Positions 334 through 20,801 of a stretch of 64,000 bases of DNA are shown in pieces. This stretch comes from Deferribacter autotrophicus. Lineage in GTDB: Bacteria > Chrysiogenota > Deferribacteres > Deferribacterales > Deferribacteraceae. The stretch spans positions 1 through 64,000 of the forward strand of contig NZ_VFJB01000004.1 in the NCBI RefSeq assembly GCF_008362905.1, written 5' to 3'. A program made the translations under genes and the position numbers. The notes beneath the pieces are model-generated. The model searched no databases. It was not told the DNA's origin and saw only the letters and a list, made by a program, of their open reading frames with translations. The first letter of the stretch is position 1. Each line of letters starts with the position of its first letter.

Positions 334-1695
334 ATGGATCTATACAGAAATATACCTAGAAAAGATAAACTTTTATCACTATTTAATGATGATTATGCTA
401 AAACAATATTAAATTATGCAATTGATCAGGAATTAAGCAATCTTAGAAAACTTATTGCTGATAACAAAATTCATAAAATAGACGAACAATTACTTATTAA
501 AAATATCGATAAAAGATATAATGAGCTTATAAGTGGCTCTCTTAAAAGAGTTGTAAATGCTACAGGAATAGTTCTTCACACAAATCTTGGTAGAGCTCCC
601 CTATCTGAAGATTTTATTCACAATATTAAGGATATTGTTTCAAGATATTCCAATCTTGAATATGACCTTGAAAAAGGAGTGCGAGGTGAAAGATATCATC
701 ATGTTGTGGAATATTTAAAAATAATTACAAACTGCGAAGATGCTCTGGTTGTAAACAATAATGCGGCAGCAGTTTTTCTTATAAATAATACTTTCAATAA
801 AGGGAAAAAAGTTATTATTTCTCGCGGAGAATTAGTGGAAATTGGAGGCAGTTTCAGAATACCGGAAGTTATAGCAAATAGTGGCGCTATTTTAAAGGAA
901 GTAGGCACAACCAACAAAACAAAAATTAGTGATTATGAAAATGCAATTGATGAAGATACAACAATGATTATAAAAATTCACAAAAGCAATTATGCAATTA
1001 TAGGTTTTACTGACGAAGTGCCATACAGAGAAATCCCAAAGATTGCTCAAAAATTCGGTCTATTATCTTATTGTGATCTTGGAAGTGGAAGTATTATACC
1101 TGGTATTGGTTGTAATGAGCCAACTTTGTCTGAGATTTATAATTATGGCTATGACTTAGTTAGTTGTAGTGGAGATAAACTTTTTGGATCTGTGCAAGCA
1201 GGAATTATTATCGGAAAAAAGAAATTAATCGAAAAATTAAAGAAAAATCAACTTTTGCGAATGCTTCGTGTAGATAAAATTACTTTATCTCTTCTTCAAG
1301 AAACTTTGAAGGCTTACCTAACAGATAGCTACAATAATATCAGATCCGTAAATCTTCTAGGCACCCCTTTAACCGATTTATTAAAAAAAGCAAAAAAATT
1401 GAAAAGAATTTTAAACCGCCATCTATCTGATTACTTTGATTTTGAAACAAAAGAAATCACCAGTTATACAGGCGGAGGTAGCTGTCCTATGCATGAGATT
1501 AAATCTTATGCTGTTATTTGCAAGTCCAAAAAAATTGACATAAATAAAATTGAAAATTTTTTACGAAAGTATCACATTCCTGTCATTATAAGATTGGTAG
1601 ATAATAAAATTGTTCTTGACGTTCGCACTATATTTGAAGATGAATTTGTTTTGATTAAGGACGCACTAGTATGGGCTACAAATCAGTTATCGTAG
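334..1695 (+). CDS. selA: L-seryl-tRNA(Sec) selenium transferase
   Basis: SelA is a PLP enzyme that converts Ser-tRNA(Sec) to Sec-tRNA(Sec) using selenophosphate. I chose the ATG at 334 (453 aa, normal for the family) over an upstream TTG at 271, because the extra 21 residues look unlike SelA and 334 gives the expected N-terminal domain. The middle holds the Fold-type I core with VNATGIVLHTNLGRAPL and the PLP-lysine motif SCSGDKLFGS, the lysine being about residue 282. The C-terminal part carries SYTGGGSCP. The stop lies 25 nt inside selB, so the two are very probably co-transcribed and translationally coupled. No selD, selC or obvious selenoprotein gene is in the window. Seen: motifs, length, overlap. 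Known: the reaction. Confidence 0.95.
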   Translation: MDLYRNIPRKDKLLSLFNDDYAKTILNYAIDQELSNLRKLIADNKIHKIDEQLLIKNIDKRYNELISGSLKRVVNATGIVLHTNLGRAPLSEDFIHNIKDIVSRYSNLEYDLEKGVRGERYHHVVEYLKIITNCEDALVVNNNAAAVFLINNTFNKGKKVIISRGELVEIGGSFRIPEVIANSGAILKEVGTTNKTKISDYENAIDEDTTMIIKIHKSNYAIIGFTDEVPYREIPKIAQKFGLLSYCDLGSGSIIPGIGCNEPTLSEIYNYGYDLVSCSGDKLFGSVQAGIIIGKKKLIEKLKKNQLLRMLRVDKITLSLLQETLKAYLTDSYNNIRSVNLLGTPLTDLLKKAKKLKRILNRHLSDYFDFETKEITSYTGGGSCPMHEIKSYAVICKSKKIDINKIENFLRKYHIPVIIRLVDNKIVLDVRTIFEDEFVLIKDALVWATNQLS

Positions 1696-3530
1696 GCACA
1701 GCTGGACACATTGATCACGGCAAGTCATCTATTGTCAAAGCTATCACAGGAATAGACCCAGATAGATTAAAGGAAGAAAAAACAAGAGGGATTACTATAG
1801 ACCTTGGTTTTGCTCATCTCAAAACTGATGACTTGATAATATCTTTTATCGATGTTCCAGGTCACGAAGCTTTAGTCAAAAATATGATAGCTGGAGCTAC
1901 TAATTTTAATATCTGTCTCTTAGTAATTGATGCCAAGGAGGGGATCAAGGCTCAAACTATTGAACATTGCAATATAATCGATTACCTAAATGTTGAAAAT
2001 CTTATAATTGCACTTAATAAAATTGATCTTGTAGATAAATCTACTGTTAGGCATAGAATATCTGAAATTGAGACATTCCTTACGAATTATAACTTTAAAA
2101 ACGTTGAAATAGTCCCAACCTCAATCAAACAATCTGATTCAATAAATATTATTAAAAATAAAATTGTAAATTATGCTAAAAAATATGAAGATAACAGATT
2201 AGACTTTCCTTTTTTAATGCACATTGATAGAGTTTTTTCTTTAAAAGGTCATGGTACCATTGTTACTGGGACCACAAACTTTGGTAGTTTAAAACAAGGT
2301 GAAACAGTCACCATTTTTCCAATAAATTTTCACGCAAAAGTTAAATCCATTCACAATCACAATGATTTAGTTTCAAACGTCTTACCTAACATGCGTACTG
2401 CCTTAAATTTGAGTGATGTAAAAAAATCTGATCTTTCAAGAGGCTACGTTATTCACAAAGGGGATTATTATTCTACTAACATATTTTATGCAAAAATAAA
2501 GATCTTTAAAAAGCTTAACTCTGAATTCAGCATCAAATCAAACAAAAAATATCTTATTTTTTATGGTACTGACTTTTTTTATGCTAAAATCATTCTTCTT
2601 GATAAAAAGGAAATTAAAAACGACGAATCAGCTTTTGCTATAATAAAACCTGATAAAGAAATAATCACTTACCCAACTGAAAAAATGCTAATAAGAAGCG
2701 GATCTCCACAAATTACTGTTGCAGGTTTAACAGTATTGTTTTGTGACAAGCTAAATTTACAAAAAAATGACTTACTTACTTTTCTAAAATATATTGATGA
2801 TAATAACCTCAAATCTGCTCTTGATTTTCTAATTACACAGCAATCTTACTATCCCTTTAAAAACTTACATCAACTTTTTCACATTCCTAAAAAAGAATTT
2901 ATTCATCTATTAAGTAGTTTAAAATTAAATACATGTTCAAACATAATCTATCCTGAATTATTTATATCAAATATTATTCAAGAAACATTAAACATACTTA
3001 AAAATACTAATAAGTTAGATCTAAATTCAATAAATTCATTCAGAAATTTGCCACAATCATTAAAAGAAAAAATTATTTCAAAACTAAAAGCAAACTTTAA
3101 AGATGAAAATTATTTTTTTGTAGGCAGTATAGTACAAAAAAAAGAACAATCAGAGTTTGAAAAGCTTGCAGATAAGGTCTTATCTTTAATGAAAAAAGAT
3201 CTTTCTATTACAAATTCTGCCAATATTTCTGAAAGATTATATATAGACAGACAAAAAGCTGAAAAAATACTTACTTATTTGCAAAATCGTGAAAGAATCA
3301 AAAGAATTTCTGAAAATATATACATCCCAACATATAGACTGGATAAAATTATAACTTCTGCAATCGATCTTGCAAAAAAAGATGGCTATATTGACATAAA
3401 AAACATAAAATCTATCGTAAACGCACCAAGAAAAACTTTAATAGCAATACTGGATTATCTCGACACCACCAATCTTTTCACAAAAAAGGAAAACAAACGA
3501 TTTTTATCTAATTTGAGTAAAAACTTATAG
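1671..3530 (+). CDS. selB: Selenocysteine-specific translation elongation factor SelB
   Basis: SelB is a GTPase that carries Sec-tRNA(Sec) to UGA codons followed by a SECIS hairpin. The G-domain motifs are intact: GHIDHGKS (residues 12-19), DVPGH (61-65) and NKID (116-119), with the diagnostic TRGITIDLGF between them. EF-Tu-like domains 2 and 3 follow, then a long C-terminal region of winged helices that in this family binds SECIS RNA. The 619-aa length is typical. The gene overlaps selA by 25 nt. Its 3' end is unusual: bases 3444-3506 are repeated exactly at 5879-5941, where the frame continues to a different stop followed by a hairpin. The present last seven residues (after RFL) therefore probably replaced the original ending. 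Confidence 0.95.
   Translation: MGYKSVIVGTAGHIDHGKSSIVKAITGIDPDRLKEEKTRGITIDLGFAHLKTDDLIISFIDVPGHEALVKNMIAGATNFNICLLVIDAKEGIKAQTIEHCNIIDYLNVENLIIALNKIDLVDKSTVRHRISEIETFLTNYNFKNVEIVPTSIKQSDSINIIKNKIVNYAKKYEDNRLDFPFLMHIDRVFSLKGHGTIVTGTTNFGSLKQGETVTIFPINFHAKVKSIHNHNDLVSNVLPNMRTALNLSDVKKSDLSRGYVIHKGDYYSTNIFYAKIKIFKKLNSEFSIKSNKKYLIFYGTDFFYAKIILLDKKEIKNDESAFAIIKPDKEIITYPTEKMLIRSGSPQITVAGLTVLFCDKLNLQKNDLLTFLKYIDDNNLKSALDFLITQQSYYPFKNLHQLFHIPKKEFIHLLSSLKLNTCSNIIYPELFISNIIQETLNILKNTNKLDLNSINSFRNLPQSLKEKIISKLKANFKDENYFFVGSIVQKKEQSEFEKLADKVLSLMKKDLSITNSANISERLYIDRQKAEKILTYLQNRERIKRISENIYIPTYRLDKIITSAIDLAKKDGYIDIKNIKSIVNAPRKTLIAILDYLDTTNLFTKKENKRFLSNLSKNL
3437..3506 (+). repeat. Left copy of a 70-bp direct repeat (selB 3' end)
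   Basis: Bases 3444-3506 (63 bp) are identical to 5879-5941. Extending left to 3437 adds six more matches and one mismatch. This copy lies inside the intact selB frame. Together with the right copy it brackets the AAA-ATPase/PD-(D/E)XK gene. Confidence 0.95.
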
Positions 3531-3915
3531 CTTCAAAATTAACAGTAATTCCACAAAGTTACGGGATTTGGTATAAAACAACCAAAATAATTTCATCGGC
3601 GAACCTTATACTTGTATATCAAAAAAATACATATGCAAAAACCTTATTCCATGGGTTCAAGGTTCAACACGTGAAATAATACCGTACGCATTGTAATTAC
3701 CGAACAATAAAACTTGAGTTGTGTTTAGTCAATATACTATACAAATGCTTTACTACACGTGTTCAAGGTTGAGATGTGAAATGGATGTTTGTAGTTATTT
3801 GTACACATTCACCTATTCACCCATCTACTCATTCACCAATTTTTTTGCAAAGAATAGGATAACGTCAGTATAAAAATTATCTTGAATTTCCCATCTGTTT
3901 TGTTATGCTATTAGT
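3531..3915. other. Intergenic region between selB and the AAA-ATPase gene
   Basis: 385 bp with no gene visible. It contains fragments of the low-complexity words seen elsewhere: GGTTCAAGGTTCAACACGTG near 3656, a similar stretch near 3760, and an array of ATTCACC/ACTCATTCACC words at about 3808-3840. No clear terminator for selB is visible, in keeping with the idea that its original terminator now lies at 5952. Confidence 0.5.
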
Positions 3916-5490
3916 ATGAAAATCAAAAAATTACCCATTGGGCAATCATCATTTGAAAATCTTATTAAAAATAATTGTATTTATATAGATAAAACAGAGA
4001 AAATTTATCAGCTAATTACAACTGGTCAATTTTATTTTTTATCCCGTCCGAGAAGATTTGGCAAATCACTCCTAGTTTCAACTTTAAAAAACATATTTCT
4101 TGGCAACAAAGAGCTTTTCAAAGGGTTGTGGATTTATGAATCTGATTATGAGTGGAAAAAACATCCTGTAATTACAATCGATTTCAATGAAATACTTTTA
4201 GATACCTCGCCTAAATTGCTTCAAGGTCTGGCTAAAACACTAGATAAAATAGCCAATTATTATGAAATTAAATTGTGTGAAGTTGAATATAAATATAAAT
4301 TTGAAGAGTTAATTGTAAAATTAAAAGGTAAATATGAACATGATGTAGTAGTTTTGATTGATGAGTACGATAAACCGATAATAACCCATCTTGGAGTGGG
4401 TGAAGAGAGATTAAAAATAGCAAAAGAAAATAGAGACATATTAAAAAGTTTTTATGGCACTTTAAAAGGTGAAAATGTAATAAAGAATTTGAGGTTTGTA
4501 TTATTGACAGGAGTTAGTAAGTTTTCTAAAGCTGGTGTATTTTCTGAGTTGAACAATCTAAACGACATTTCGATGCATTCAAAGTATGCTGATTTGTTAG
4601 GGGTGACAGAGGATGAGTTGAGACTTCATTTTGACGATTACTTGCAAGAGACAGCGGATGAGCTTGGCATAGAAAATGAGAAATTAATTTCAAAGATAAT
4701 TGACTATTACAACGGTTATAGATTCTCAGAGAAAAATTTGAAAGTAATAAATCCATATTCTCTTTTATGCTTATTTGACAACAGGATGTTTAGGAACTAT
4801 TGGTTTGAGAGTGGTACACCTACATTTTTGGTAAATCTGTTAAAGCAGGAGGACTTTTATCTGCCAAGGGTGGAGAATTTAATAGTAAAAGAGAGCATAT
4901 TTTCCACCTATGAACTTGAGGATTTGGACCCTACAGCGTTGTTATTCCAGACAGGTTATTTAACTATTAAAGATTACTATATTGATACAAATGAATATGT
5001 ATTAAGCTATCCTAACAAAGAGGTGAAATACTCATTTTTGGAGATACTGTATAAGAGTTATACGAATGATATTGACAATGATAATCGTTTTTTAGAATTA
5101 GGCAGAGCATTGAGGTCAGGAAATATAGATAAATTTATTGAGCTAGCGAAACTAATATTTTCAAGAATAGCGTACAGTGTGGGCAGTAAGTTGAATGAAG
5201 CTAATTTTCACACATTATTTTATTTGATGGTGAGTGCAGGTGGAGCGCCTGCTGAGATGGAAATTCTTAGTTGTGATGGCAGGATAGATATGGTGGTAAG
5301 CTGGAAGGATAAGATATTCATTATGGAGTTTAAATGCGATCAGAGTGCGGAAAAGGCTTTGGAGCAAATAAAAGAAAAAAATTATAGTTCAAGGTTCAGA
5401 GTTCAAGGTTCAAAGTTGTATCTGATAGGTATAAATTTTGATACAAACATAAGGAACATATCTGATTGGAAGTCTGAAGTGATTGGATAG
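3916..5490 (+). CDS. AAA-ATPase-like / PD-(D/E)XK nuclease-like protein
   Basis: This matches the Pfam pair AAA-ATPase_like (PF09820) and PDDEXK_9 (PF08011), a protein type often found in many variable copies per genome and of unknown role. The N-terminal half begins with the typical LPIGQSSFENLI...YIDKT. A P-loop variant RPRRFGKSLL (residues 44-53) and a Walker B-like VVVLIDEYDKP follow. The C-terminal nuclease-like core has RID (D458) and EFK (E471, K473). Length 524 aa is normal. Near the 3' end, 5388-5416 consists of the GTTCAAGG/GTTCAGA words of the intergenic arrays and encodes a loop just before KLYLIGINFD. The gene is bracketed by a 63-bp direct repeat of the selB end, which suggests recent insertion. 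Function not known. Confidence 0.85.
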   Translation: MKIKKLPIGQSSFENLIKNNCIYIDKTEKIYQLITTGQFYFLSRPRRFGKSLLVSTLKNIFLGNKELFKGLWIYESDYEWKKHPVITIDFNEILLDTSPKLLQGLAKTLDKIANYYEIKLCEVEYKYKFEELIVKLKGKYEHDVVVLIDEYDKPIITHLGVGEERLKIAKENRDILKSFYGTLKGENVIKNLRFVLLTGVSKFSKAGVFSELNNLNDISMHSKYADLLGVTEDELRLHFDDYLQETADELGIENEKLISKIIDYYNGYRFSEKNLKVINPYSLLCLFDNRMFRNYWFESGTPTFLVNLLKQEDFYLPRVENLIVKESIFSTYELEDLDPTALLFQTGYLTIKDYYIDTNEYVLSYPNKEVKYSFLEILYKSYTNDIDNDNRFLELGRALRSGNIDKFIELAKLIFSRIAYSVGSKLNEANFHTLFYLMVSAGGAPAEMEILSCDGRIDMVVSWKDKIFIMEFKCDQSAEKALEQIKEKNYSSRFRVQGSKLYLIGINFDTNIRNISDWKSEVIG

Positions 5491-5871
5491 ATGCGTAGAT
5501 GAGTGAATGTGACAACCCCGCCCAGTTGCGTGTATATGTTGCTCGATGATTGAATAATATTGTAAACGCTATATAGCCTTTATGAGCTGTGGTGCGGATG
5601 AGTGAATGGTAAATATGTAAATGGGTAAATTATAGATTTTTTAATTAAAAACAAATATTAACCGTTAACTCCGCTATATTTAGACAATATGATTTTACTT
5701 TACACATTGTTAACATGAATAAAATATTCTTGGTTTACTGTTTTAACTATGGCCTATTTATGGACATGTTTTGTTTCGTTACTCTAATCTGCTGTAAAAA
5801 CAACTACAGGTAATTTTGAGAAAAGTAATCTTCTATGTTTTATCATATTCCGTAAAATTGCGTAGTTACCG
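5491..5871. other. Intergenic region downstream of the AAA-ATPase gene
   Basis: No gene visible. It contains GATGAGTGAATG-type words at about 5500 and 5595, in the opposite sense to those at 3808-3840. The rest is plain AT-rich DNA up to the right copy of the selB repeat. Confidence 0.5.
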
Positions 5872-5951
5872 TTTAATCGCAATACTGGATTATCTCGACA
5901 CCACCAATCTTTTCACAAAAAAGGAAAACAAACGATTTTTAAAAATTAACT
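5872..5951 (+). pseudogene. Displaced duplicate of the selB 3' end (right copy of the direct repeat)
   Basis: 5879-5941 is identical to selB 3444-3506, and the selB frame runs on as RFLKIN to a TAG. No start or upstream part of selB is present, so this is not a gene now. The stop followed at once by a hairpin suggests it is the original end of selB, cut off by insertion of the intervening 2.4 kb. That reading is inference; the sequence identity is directly seen. Confidence 0.85.
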
Positions 5952-5976
5952 AGTAGCCACTTTATCAGTGGCTACT
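5952..5976. terminator. Hairpin abutting the stop of the selB-end duplicate
   Basis: AGTAGCCAC, a 7-nt loop, then GTGGCTACT: a 9-bp perfect stem that starts in the last bases of the TAG stop. It has the same design as the hairpins after ackA (37524 and 37553) and fmdE (38272). Probably a transcription terminator, perhaps the former selB terminator. Confidence 0.6.
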
Positions 5977-5999
5977 AGTTTAGGTTCAAGGTTCTAATG

Positions 6000-6444: not shown

Positions 6445-7191
6445 TTACCTTTTAGTATTTTTCATAGATTGTAAACTTTTGATTCTATAGCTTTCACCAT
6501 TGATTCTAAAAATATGAGCATGATGTACGAGTCTATCTATGATAGCAGAAGCTAAAACAACATCACCAAATATATTACCCCACTCTTCGAAAGGCCTATT
6601 AGTAGTGATAATTATAGAATTATTTTCATATCTATGTCTGATTATTTCAAAAAATTCATCAACATGGTTTAAAGGTATTTTCTTAAAACCAACCTCATCA
6701 ATTATCAGTAAATCCACACTTAAAAACTGTTTTAATACACTAAAATAACTACCATCTCCTTTCGATGATATTAATTTTGATACCATGTCATTGGCGTGAA
6801 TAAATAAAACCTTGTATCCTTTCTTTAAAGCCTCTAATCCTATGGCATTTGCAAGATGTGTTTTGCCAACTCCTGGATTACCCATGAATATTATATTCTT
6901 CTTTTCTTCTATAAATCTGCAACTACTTATATCAAGTATTTCTTGCTTATTCAGTTCAGGCTGATAAGTAAAATCATACATAGATAATGTTTTGGATGAA
7001 TCCAACTTAGATTTTGAAAATCTTCTCTTAAAAGAATTATTCTGTCTGTTCACTGACTCATCATCAAGTAACAATTCAAGAAAATCCAGGTAACTCAAAC
7101 TGTTTTCTATTGCATATTGATTTCGGCTTTCTAATGTCTTTGCCATTCCGGATAACTTAAAATTTGTTAGTTTTTTTAAAATATCTTGCAT
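6445..7191 (-). CDS. istB: IS21-family helper ATPase IstB
   Basis: IstB is the DnaA/DnaC-like AAA+ ATPase that selects target DNA and stimulates the IstA transposase. Walker A GNPGVGKT is at residues 104-111 and Walker B-like LLIIDEVGF follows. The C-terminal part has SIIITTNRPFEEWG and a sensor-2-type region. At 248 aa it is full length for the family. It starts 17 bp downstream of the istA stop, the usual istA-istB order, and probably depends on istA transcription. Confidence 0.95.
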   Translation of the reverse strand: MQDILKKLTNFKLSGMAKTLESRNQYAIENSLSYLDFLELLLDDESVNRQNNSFKRRFSKSKLDSSKTLSMYDFTYQPELNKQEILDISSCRFIEEKKNIIFMGNPGVGKTHLANAIGLEALKKGYKVLFIHANDMVSKLISSKGDGSYFSVLKQFLSVDLLIIDEVGFKKIPLNHVDEFFEIIRHRYENNSIIITTNRPFEEWGNIFGDVVLASAIIDRLVHHAHIFRINGESYRIKSLQSMKNTKR

Positions 7192-7208
7192 TTATACCCT
7201 CCCCCTCA

Positions 7209-8648
7209 TCAATTAACTAATAAATCATATTTACTTAAATCATTCGAAAAACCACCACAGTTAACCGATTCTTTAGATGACGCATCTTTTTGAGTATATA
7301 AACCAGTTTCACATATCCTCTTTACTGACAAATAACTAATGGAATTAAACTCATTTGCTCTCTTACATGCCAATTCCACTGTATCTTTATCATAACTCTT
7401 CATCAAATTAAAAATTCCTTGCATCATACGGTGATAATGATGGGGCTTTTCTTCCTTTAACCTGTTATAAAATTCAAAGGTGTTTGTACCTATCTCAAGC
7501 GATTTTGCTTCATAATCTACAGATTTTAATTTCGGATTATGAGATTCTTTTGTTATGAATTCTCCTACTGATTTAGATATATTGTGAATTGCTATCTCTT
7601 CATATTTATCATTGTAAATTTTTAATATATTACCATTGCTGCGAATACTTACTTTGTTGCCTATGTAATTGTAGGGTACTGAGTAGTAATTATATCTGTA
7701 AGTAATGTGACCATAGCGGTTTACTATTCTTTCCGATATGTCATAAACCTCGTATCTCTGAGATGGTAAAGGCTGCAATTTACTTTTCTCCTTATCTACA
7801 AATTGTTCAAAAGGAATTTTTCTTGTCGTGCCATGTATTTTCTTGTTACATACATTGTCTTGCCACTTTCGTAGAAGACCTTTGACTTTATAATAATCTT
7901 TTTCTTGAATTGATTTGAAAAAATTATTCTTCACATATTTAATTCCGCTTTCCACTTTCCCTTTCTCCTGGGGATATCTCACCTTACAAGCAAATGGACT
8001 GCTACCGTAATATTCAAGCATTGCAGCATACTCTTTCTGTATTACAGGTTCATAAAAATTTGCTTTCAATACTCCAGATTTTAAATTGTCTATCTTGATT
8101 ACTCTAGGAATTCCTCCAAAATATTCAAATGCATTAATGTGGCATCTTAAAAATGTTTCTACGTCCTGACTCCTAACTATTTCATAATATTTATATCTGC
8201 TATGAGATAGCACCATGCAAAATATCCAGCTCTTTACTTTTTTACCTTTTTCGCTATCATAAAGATAACCTATGTAACCGAAGTCCACTTGGGCTTCTTC
8301 GCCTGGTGGGGAAATTAATGGGACATAAATTCCATCCGGGCCTTTTAATTTCCTAACATACTTTTTCACACAACTGTAGCTTACGGATAAACCATGATCA
8401 CTTATTAGTTTCTGATGGATTAATACTGCTGTTAAACCTTCTGAGAGGTATTCGATTATTTCTTCTTTGTAAGCCTCTAAAACACTTACTCTTGAAAATT
8501 TGGGTGTTTCTACTTTACCGTCTTTCACTTTGTCCCTTATCTTTCTCACTGTCTTCCTGTCGATCCCTAATTCCCTGGCTATTTGGGAAATATTTTTGCC
8601 TTGCGACAACAATGTCTTTACTGTGTAATACATTTCTACCCCCAGCAT
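7209..8648 (-). CDS. istA: IS21-family transposase IstA
   Basis: A DDE transposase that cuts and joins the IS ends. An N-terminal helix-turn-helix (GKNISQIARELGIDRKTVRK, about residues 17-36) is followed by an RNase H-like core. Catalytic residues visible are D122 (AQVDFGY), D187 (KIDNLK) and E233 (KVESG). The 479-aa frame is unbroken. A second in-frame ATG five codons in (MYYTV) is also possible as a start. The promoter must lie in the 100 bp between 8648 and the IS end. Confidence 0.95.
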   Translation of the reverse strand: MLGVEMYYTVKTLLSQGKNISQIARELGIDRKTVRKIRDKVKDGKVETPKFSRVSVLEAYKEEIIEYLSEGLTAVLIHQKLISDHGLSVSYSCVKKYVRKLKGPDGIYVPLISPPGEEAQVDFGYIGYLYDSEKGKKVKSWIFCMVLSHSRYKYYEIVRSQDVETFLRCHINAFEYFGGIPRVIKIDNLKSGVLKANFYEPVIQKEYAAMLEYYGSSPFACKVRYPQEKGKVESGIKYVKNNFFKSIQEKDYYKVKGLLRKWQDNVCNKKIHGTTRKIPFEQFVDKEKSKLQPLPSQRYEVYDISERIVNRYGHITYRYNYYSVPYNYIGNKVSIRSNGNILKIYNDKYEEIAIHNISKSVGEFITKESHNPKLKSVDYEAKSLEIGTNTFEFYNRLKEEKPHHYHRMMQGIFNLMKSYDKDTVELACKRANEFNSISYLSVKRICETGLYTQKDASSKESVNCGGFSNDLSKYDLLVN

Positions 8649-8746
8649 TTTATTTCCTCCAACCTGTGTATTTGTTGGAGGATGTTAACATACACAGGTG
8701 GGGATTTTTAAGGGCCTTTTACTGGGGAATTATTGTACCTTTAACA

Positions 8747-8750
8747 ACTG
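8747..8750. repeat. Right target-site duplication (ACTG) of the IS21 element
   Basis: Partner of 6391-6394. It is followed directly by the continuing GIY-YIG frame. Confidence 0.9.
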
Positions 8751-9011
8751 TTTTATATACATGTGTTACAAGTAATCTCTTGAAAAGAGTTTATGAACAT
8801 AAGCATGAATTAGTTGATGGATTTACAAAAAGATATAAGATTAAAAAACTTGTGTATTATGAAGTTTTTGATTCGATTGAAGAGGCAATAAAGAGGGAGA
8901 AACAGATAAAAGGTGGCAGTAGGAAGAAAAAGATTGCTCTGATTGAAAGTATAAATCCTAATTGGAGTGATTTGTATTATCAATTGGATTAAATTCTTTA
9001 CCTATTTTATT

Positions 9012-19883: not shown

Positions 19884-20801
19884 TTATATTTCACCTTTAC
19901 TCATAGGATGAGTTTTATCATAAACTTTTAAAATCTCACTCAGGTTGAGATGAGTATACTTTTGCGTTGTGGAAAGGCTGGAATGCCCAAGCAGTTTTTG
20001 TATTGTCCTCAAATCCGCACCGTTTTCCAGAAGATGAGTAGCAAATGTATGTCTGAATGAGTGAGGACTATAGTTTAGCGGCAATCCTGCTATCTTCAAA
20101 TATTTATCCACAATCCTTCTTACAGAGCGATCCGTAAGCCCGGTACCAAGTCTGTTTATAAAAACCTTATCTGTTTTCACCATTCTTTTTACTGCTATTC
20201 TCTCCCTTTCACTCAAATATTTTGATAATAACTCAAGTATATAGTCCGATAATGGAATTATTCTCATCTTTTTACCTTTTCCATAAATACGCACCCTTTT
20301 ACCACTAAAATCGATATCATCCACTTTTATTCCCACCAATTCTGAAACCCTTACTCCTGTTCCGTAAAGAAACTCCAAAATCAGCGCATCTCTCAATCCT
20401 ATGGGCTTGCTTTTATCAGGCAATTCAAGCAAATTGAAAATAGAGTCTATATCAAATACCGTTAAAAGTTTTTTATCTTTTTTTGGGAACTTTAACATCC
20501 TTGCCGGATTATCTTCAATAAATCCACGCTTTATGAGAAACTTGAAAAATGAACGCAACGAGGCAATCTTTCTTTCAATACTTCCTCTAGCAAGCCCCTT
20601 CTCATGCAAAAAAGCCACAAACCCTCTGAGCATGAAATAATCTATTTTATTAAGCATTATATTTTCATCCTCAAGATACAAAACTAAATCATTCAAATCA
20701 TTCAAATACGATTTAACGGTATGCTGACTGCACTGCCTCTCATTTATAAGATACTGCTCAAATTTCATTATTGCATCATTTAATCGTAACATAATAACCA
20801 A
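19884..20801 (-). CDS. xerD: Tyrosine recombinase XerC/XerD
   Basis: Site-specific recombinase that resolves chromosome dimers at dif. The N-terminal SAM-like core-binding domain begins FEQYLINERQCSQHTVKSYLNDL. The catalytic domain shows R (YGTGVRVSEL), HSFRHTFATHLLENGADLRTIQ split into the H-x-x-R box and following helix, H (LGHSSLSTTQ) and the nucleophile Y (KYTHL). Length about 300 aa is standard. The ORF opens at 20801; MLRLND three codons in is a plausible start. Whether it is XerC, XerD or the single XerH-like recombinase cannot be told by eye; the xerD symbol is tentative. It may act on MITE or dif-like sites, which I cannot place in the window. Confidence 0.88.
   Translation of the reverse strand: MVIMLRLNDAIMKFEQYLINERQCSQHTVKSYLNDLNDLVLYLEDENIMLNKIDYFMLRGFVAFLHEKGLARGSIERKIASLRSFFKFLIKRGFIEDNPARMLKFPKKDKKLLTVFDIDSIFNLLELPDKSKPIGLRDALILEFLYGTGVRVSELVGIKVDDIDFSGKRVRIYGKGKKMRIIPLSDYILELLSKYLSERERIAVKRMVKTDKVFINRLGTGLTDRSVRRIVDKYLKIAGLPLNYSPHSFRHTFATHLLENGADLRTIQKLLGHSSLSTTQKYTHLNLSEILKVYDKTHPMSKGEI

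Follow-up and report, generated by a model that had tools for sequence, protein, structure and literature searches.

The 3' end of selB in the heat-loving bacterium Deferribacter autotrophicus raises the question of how a gene for a fused ATPase-nuclease came to lie between two copies of the same selB segment. The window analyzed is the 64,000-nucleotide stretch at positions 1 to 64,000 of contig NZ_VFJB01000004.1 (RefSeq assembly GCF_008362905.1), and the gene belongs to the AAA-ATPase_like/PDDEXK_9 (DUF1703) family. Members of this family have the same two-domain protein and are described as patchy, expanded and present on plasmids (PMC6387759, PMC1913061). A search of open papers that name the family found neither flanking repeats nor a route of spread described, which is weak evidence of novelty.

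A perfect 63-bp direct repeat occupies positions 3444-3506 and 5879-5941, an identity that the initial annotation had given exactly, and it extends leftward to 70 bp with one mismatch (3437-3506 and 5872-5941; the features of selB and of the DNA downstream are all given on the forward strand). With up to three mismatches allowed, a 25-base piece of the repeat was found at just two places in the window, with 0 expected from shuffles, and the whole D. autotrophicus genome contains no third copy of the 70-bp repeat. The left copy lies within selB (1671-3530), an open reading frame (ORF) encoding 619 amino acids with Pfam GTP_EFTU and SelB-wing_3 matches. Its product ends in RFLSNLSKNL at a TAG at 3528-3530, and the last seven residues (SNLSKNL) are new. 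In the right copy the selB frame continues to RFLKIN and its own TAG at 5951-5953; both endings are as the initial annotation had described them. The new selB tail (3507-3530) was found neither elsewhere in the D. autotrophicus genome nor in D. desulfuricans, and a scan of genome contigs with selB returned distant GTPases only.

Comparison with relatives distinguishes the older tail from the newer one. SelB of D. desulfuricans (SSM1) ends in RFLKNN, and its gene is followed by a convergent gene and by no AAA gene. The DNA of this tail aligns to position 5952 through the right copy and to just 3506 through the left copy, and the lysine that follows the repeat-ending leucine in the right copy is found in 15 of 17 relatives. 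The D. desulfuricans tail and the shared lysine together show that the right copy is the ancestral selB tail, with KIN and the stop codon displaced to 5942-5953, that the left copy leads into a new tail, and that the 2,372 bp between the repeat copies were inserted. The insertion at the selB end is well supported. The SelB-wing_3 domain ends at residue 612, ahead of the altered tail, and the insertion is tolerated because the winged helix is intact and only a few tail residues are swapped. A strong hairpin (5948-5980; −23 kcal/mol, z = −4.8) overlaps the displaced stop codon, so the terminator-like structure that had been reported after the right copy does exist. Its role as the selB terminator is unproven because a T run is missing, D. 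desulfuricans selB is not followed by a corresponding hairpin, and the right arm begins a repeat also present at G000:C8:68924 in D. autotrophicus. The proposed comparison with a relative lacking the gene yielded the expected lysine-type tail and no AAA gene, but no hairpin.

The inserted gene (3916-5490) encodes a 524-residue protein with an AAA-ATPase_like domain (PF09820; residues 7-209, 194 bits against a cut-off of 26.1) and a PDDEXK_9 domain (PF08011; 66 bits against 25.5). The ATPase motifs and the D..ExK motif are intact in the sequence, and the nuclease residues D458, E471 and K473 are invariant among 10 relatives. The protein is about 44% identical to full-length relatives within the phylum and 58-62% identical to partial copies in a Calditerrivibrio; the gene therefore did not arise by recent duplication of a paralogue within the D. 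autotrophicus genome. Sequence searches found no relative in the PDB, PADLOC returned a negligible match only, and a fold model of modest quality (predicted local distance difference test score, 69) gave weak matches that may point to a STAND/ORC-type ATPase and a HincII-like nuclease. A heptamer array (AGTTCAAGGTTCAA; 5386-5417) runs in frame inside the gene and encodes SSRFRVQGSK, where relatives have a different stretch of equal length.

The insert also contains degenerate octamer arrays and repeats resembling miniature inverted-repeat transposable elements (MITEs). Its left outer unit, a 63-bp repeat at 3536-3598 that lies 28 bp inward of the direct-repeat edge, is homologous and inverted relative to the right outer unit at 5836-5877 (75% over 40 bp), and the pairing is supported by a third copy at G000:C10:73597-73664, which brings this repeat family to four places. 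The left unit is followed by half a MITE-like repeat (3601-3667; terminal inverted repeat type ..TATTCCACGGGTT), a 116-bp MITE-like repeat (3655-3770) with at least seven further genome copies (83-96%), and an octamer-type array (TTCACCCATCTACTCA..; 3804-3840) with inverted copies at 5479-5511 and 5598-5637. This array family also occurs in loci L049 and L052. On the right lies a 223-bp unit (5655-5877), MITE-like and bearing inverted ends of its own, whose right end forms the right outer unit; its last bases, TTTAAT, are also the first six bases of the selB repeat. Microhomology joining leaves overlaps of this kind. No recombinase, integrase or integrase remnant, or transposase was found by ORF and Pfam analysis within the insert (3507-5871), and a plasmid search using both insert ends gave no match. 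An XerC-like gene (19884-20801) is 14 kb away and a set of IS21 genes (6445-8648) lies outside the insert. The earlier proposal was that about 2.4 kb carrying only the AAA gene had inserted at the end of selB and given the gene a rebuilt tail. It holds for the insertion and the tail; the "only" does not, given the MITE-like repeats.

Family genes were surveyed for direct repeats on their two sides. In an initial sample drawn from Deferribacterales, plasmids and viruses, several PDDEXK_9 copies had exact repeats. In a formal test with simple arrays filtered out, all loci kept and 600-bp flanks, 15 of 78 PDDEXK_9 genes were bracketed by direct repeats, whereas none of 117 control ORFs taken from these loci was; the corresponding counts for inverted repeats were 3 of 78 and 0 of 117. 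Eight of the 15 bracketed genes are from Calditerrivibrio and lie between octamer or heptamer arrays, a separate feature. Among 73 more control ORFs that adjoin a PDDEXK_9 gene, the four bracketed ones are two family fragments, a DUF234 gene and an Rpn gene. With a stricter filter, 2-kb flanks and several phyla, the counts were 10 of 76 PDDEXK_9 genes and 1 of 111 control ORFs (p = 6e-4), and the sole bracketed control is an AAA fragment. With the window, as the discovery case, and the tandem and array cases set aside, the remaining enrichment is real but gives modest support. The repeats at different family copies are unrelated in sequence and range from about 60 to 280 bp (82-282 bp at copies other than the selB one), a pattern that speaks against a single integrase acting at a single att site. 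Locus L226 and the inner repeats of L231 were rejected as insertion repeats because they are plain tandem duplications of the gene, and no clean empty sites were obtained between the sister species G008 and G015, where sites are occupied in both or rearranged.

Individual loci illustrate the range of these repeats. The initial annotation had suggested looking beside other family copies in the same genome: no further copy of the 63-bp repeat exists, and a different, 191-bp repeat (90% identical, 69-bp perfect core) brackets AAA_14/DUF4143 and PDDEXK_9 genes on contig G000:C3 (L050, 10829-14337), starting at the stop codon of a truncated ORF. An Azotobacter chroococcum plasmid has, beyond the AAA gene, a second version (261 bp, 77% identical) of the 3'-terminal part of a PP2C gene, including its stop codon. 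As at the selB locus, a gene tail has been displaced here, and it has partly decayed. The Hydrogenophilus plasmid pTH1 has the order cas1-T-Rpn-T-AAA-T, in which the T copies are 90-96% identical, and a second AAA unit elsewhere on the plasmid is 93.5% identical and has a T piece attached. The pTH1 regions (L209, 9339-11123 and 19574-23585) comprise cas1, the Rpn gene and two PDDEXK_9 genes, with the repeat downstream of cas1 alternating with nuclease genes. The Rpn recombination-promoting nucleases resemble the PDDEXK_9 proteins in being PD-(D/E)XK enzymes that are numerous and patchy, and one is annotated in this pTH1 repeat cluster; they differ in lacking the ATPase domain. A Bacteroidales prophage has a PDDEXK_9 gene with a copy of an 82-bp terminator region on either side.

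The explanation we favor, tentatively and at somewhat less than even confidence, is the insertion of a gene-sized ATPase-nuclease block with a long target duplication, through a repair-type capture and with no classical integrase element. The mechanism that we infer is a single event in which a block with the AAA-ATPase_like/PDDEXK_9 gene would have inserted near the selB stop codon without use of an integrase of its own, leaving 63-70 bp of selB duplicated on either side. The block would most likely have been captured during repair of a break near the selB end, either by the filling in of long staggered ends or by a template switch, and the break may have been made by the encoded nuclease itself. 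The other ATPase-PD-(D/E)XK genes between differing long local repeats, in D. autotrophicus and in other phyla, are what a repetition of such events would leave. Several points weigh against this explanation. The insert is more than a nuclease gene, and its outer units resemble transposon ends. Most family members (66 of 76) have no such repeat, and with the window, tandem duplications and array cases removed the survey falls to 4 of 70 compared with 0 of 110 (p about 0.02); core and plasmid genes, rather than other recently acquired genes, make up most of the control ORFs. Within one species, no site lacking the insert and carrying a single copy of the repeat was seen, and D. desulfuricans has a SelB protein identity of 63%. 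For breakage by the nuclease, which is suggested by its domains and by the repeat enrichment, we put the chance at one in five at most.

The main rival is a doubtful but serious reading that matches this one locus roughly as closely as any known system does. It takes the 70-bp repeats as the attL and attR sites of an element with a tyrosine or serine recombinase, for which the 3' end of selB served as attB. The element would have lost its integration genes and survive as a 2.4-kb cis-mobilizable element (CIME). Like CIMEs, integrative and mobilizable elements (IMEs) and integrative and conjugative elements (ICEs) at gene 3' ends, the insert has a gene-end direct repeat on both sides, a rebuilt frame and a displaced old tail; gene-end integration with a rebuilt tail and direct repeats of 8-60 bp is their standard anatomy (PMC5704250). 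The direct repeats at both ends include the end of the target gene, as in a CIME, and the single mismatch at the repeat edge is of the sort that separates attP from attB. CIMEs generally keep att sites without an integrase, and in the ssrA islands of Dehalococcoides a 20-bp repeat of the gene 3' end separates modules much as in cas1-T-Rpn-T-AAA-T (PMC3146451), although those islands have ccr-type recombinase genes and one fixed target gene. The selB insert is just 2.4 kb and contains no integrase gene, which IMEs and ICEs require and a CIME by definition lacks, nor any remnant of one, and its 63-70 bp repeat is at or beyond the usual range. The 63-bp sequence, taken as attP, occurs in no viral contig searched, and no related element with the same att sequence was found in the genome, in the viral contigs or beside other family members, whose flanking repeats are unrelated and so offer no common att site. 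Targeting of gene 3' ends across the family was rejected as well: neighbors at 64 sites are tandem at 40, convergent at 16 and divergent at 8, compared with 110, 37 and 31 control gaps, which is no significant preference (p = 0.24 for fewer divergent pairs). The idea in the initial annotation of an integrating element directed to gene 3' ends is not supported, in view of the missing integrase, the unrelated repeats elsewhere and these orientations.

It is also rather unlikely that the insertion was a passive accident, in which MITE-like, repeat-rich intergenic DNA moved by transposition or template switching with the nuclease gene as a passenger. The insert is largely dispersed repeats, its outermost units are homologous and inverted and may correspond to the inverted repeats, here imperfect, that bound MITEs and insertion sequences (IS), and the same repeat cluster without the nuclease gene is present at G000:C10. 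No direct repeat was found beside the inverted unit of this C10 copy; the long repeats around PDDEXK_9 genes in other phyla, which lack these MITEs, are left unexplained. IS target duplications are usually a few to about 30 bp, far shorter than the 63-70 bp of the insert, the insert has no transposase such as a DDE transposon or IS would encode, and we know of no MITE family that gives duplications of 60-70 bp. Free-standing homing endonuclease genes insert by gene conversion without target duplication; the target is duplicated here, and a nuclease domain is present. It is highly improbable that the end of selB was duplicated in tandem with later decay, or that the assembly is wrong at this place. 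PDDEXK_9 genes do duplicate in tandem (L226, L231), but the second insert copy expected beside a repeat is absent and the ancestral tail follows the right copy, and the decayed-copy reading was rejected on both counts. An artefact is disfavored because the genome was assembled from paired and mate-pair short reads (PMC6896113), for which a repeat of 63 bp is short.

Other observations concern the surroundings of the insert and of its relatives. MITE-like families with ends ACACGTGTAATA and CCGTGGAATA (3655-3770; L002-L008) are found at many D. autotrophicus intergenic sites, usually adjoining TTCAAGG heptamers. Deferribacterales PDDEXK_9 genes (L083-L095 of G002, L049, L050, and loci of G008 and G015) lie amid degenerate 7- or 8-base tandem arrays of the GTTAGAAC, TTGAACC and GTTCTAC types, and homology between the gene copies stops in the arrays. 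In Calditerrivibrio an array is within 300 bp of 17 of 18 PDDEXK_9 genes, with 42 arrays near the genes compared with 5 in 99.6 kb farther off. A 94-bp direct repeat (95%; 1709-1802 and 3679-3772 of L049, contig G000:C6) brackets an ATPase_2/DUF234 gene adjoining a PDDEXK_9 gene, and its left copy starts 7 nt past a PIN-domain gene; the DUF234-gene protein is an ATPase with a nuclease-like partner domain. L097 (G008) and L103 (G015) each have a PDDEXK_9 gene by a glutaminyl-tRNA-synthetase-like neighbor (glnS), in opposite orientation and 76% identical. In L100 (G008; 2303-3961) a PDDEXK_9 gene lies directly 3' of an apparent clustered regularly interspaced short palindromic repeat array with units of about 74 bp, and the sister species has no such gene there. 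Within the window, a GIY-YIG endonuclease ORF (8492-8992) overlaps the beginning of the IS21 transposase gene, which lies on the opposite strand.

Mobility of the family, as proposed in the initial annotation, gains indirect support from the long direct repeats around other PDDEXK_9 genes, including one in D. autotrophicus, and we infer it on that basis. A broader proposal, which we consider improbable at present, treats genes for fused ATPase-PD-(D/E)XK proteins (PDDEXK_9, perhaps also AAA_14/DUF4143 and ATPase_2/DUF234) as mobile elements of a single gene, whose own protein would make a break, or nicks spaced far apart, close to gene ends, the gene then being copied in and fill-in leaving duplications of about 60-280 bp. 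The selB insertion and the long repeats around family members in unrelated bacteria give a first hint of how the scattered PDDEXK_9 family spreads. Genes of the PDDEXK_9/DUF1703 type are numerous and patchy, and a recent, near-perfect insertion together with repeats elsewhere makes their spread experimentally answerable. If the nuclease does drive its own insertion, these genes would represent a new class of one-gene mobile element.

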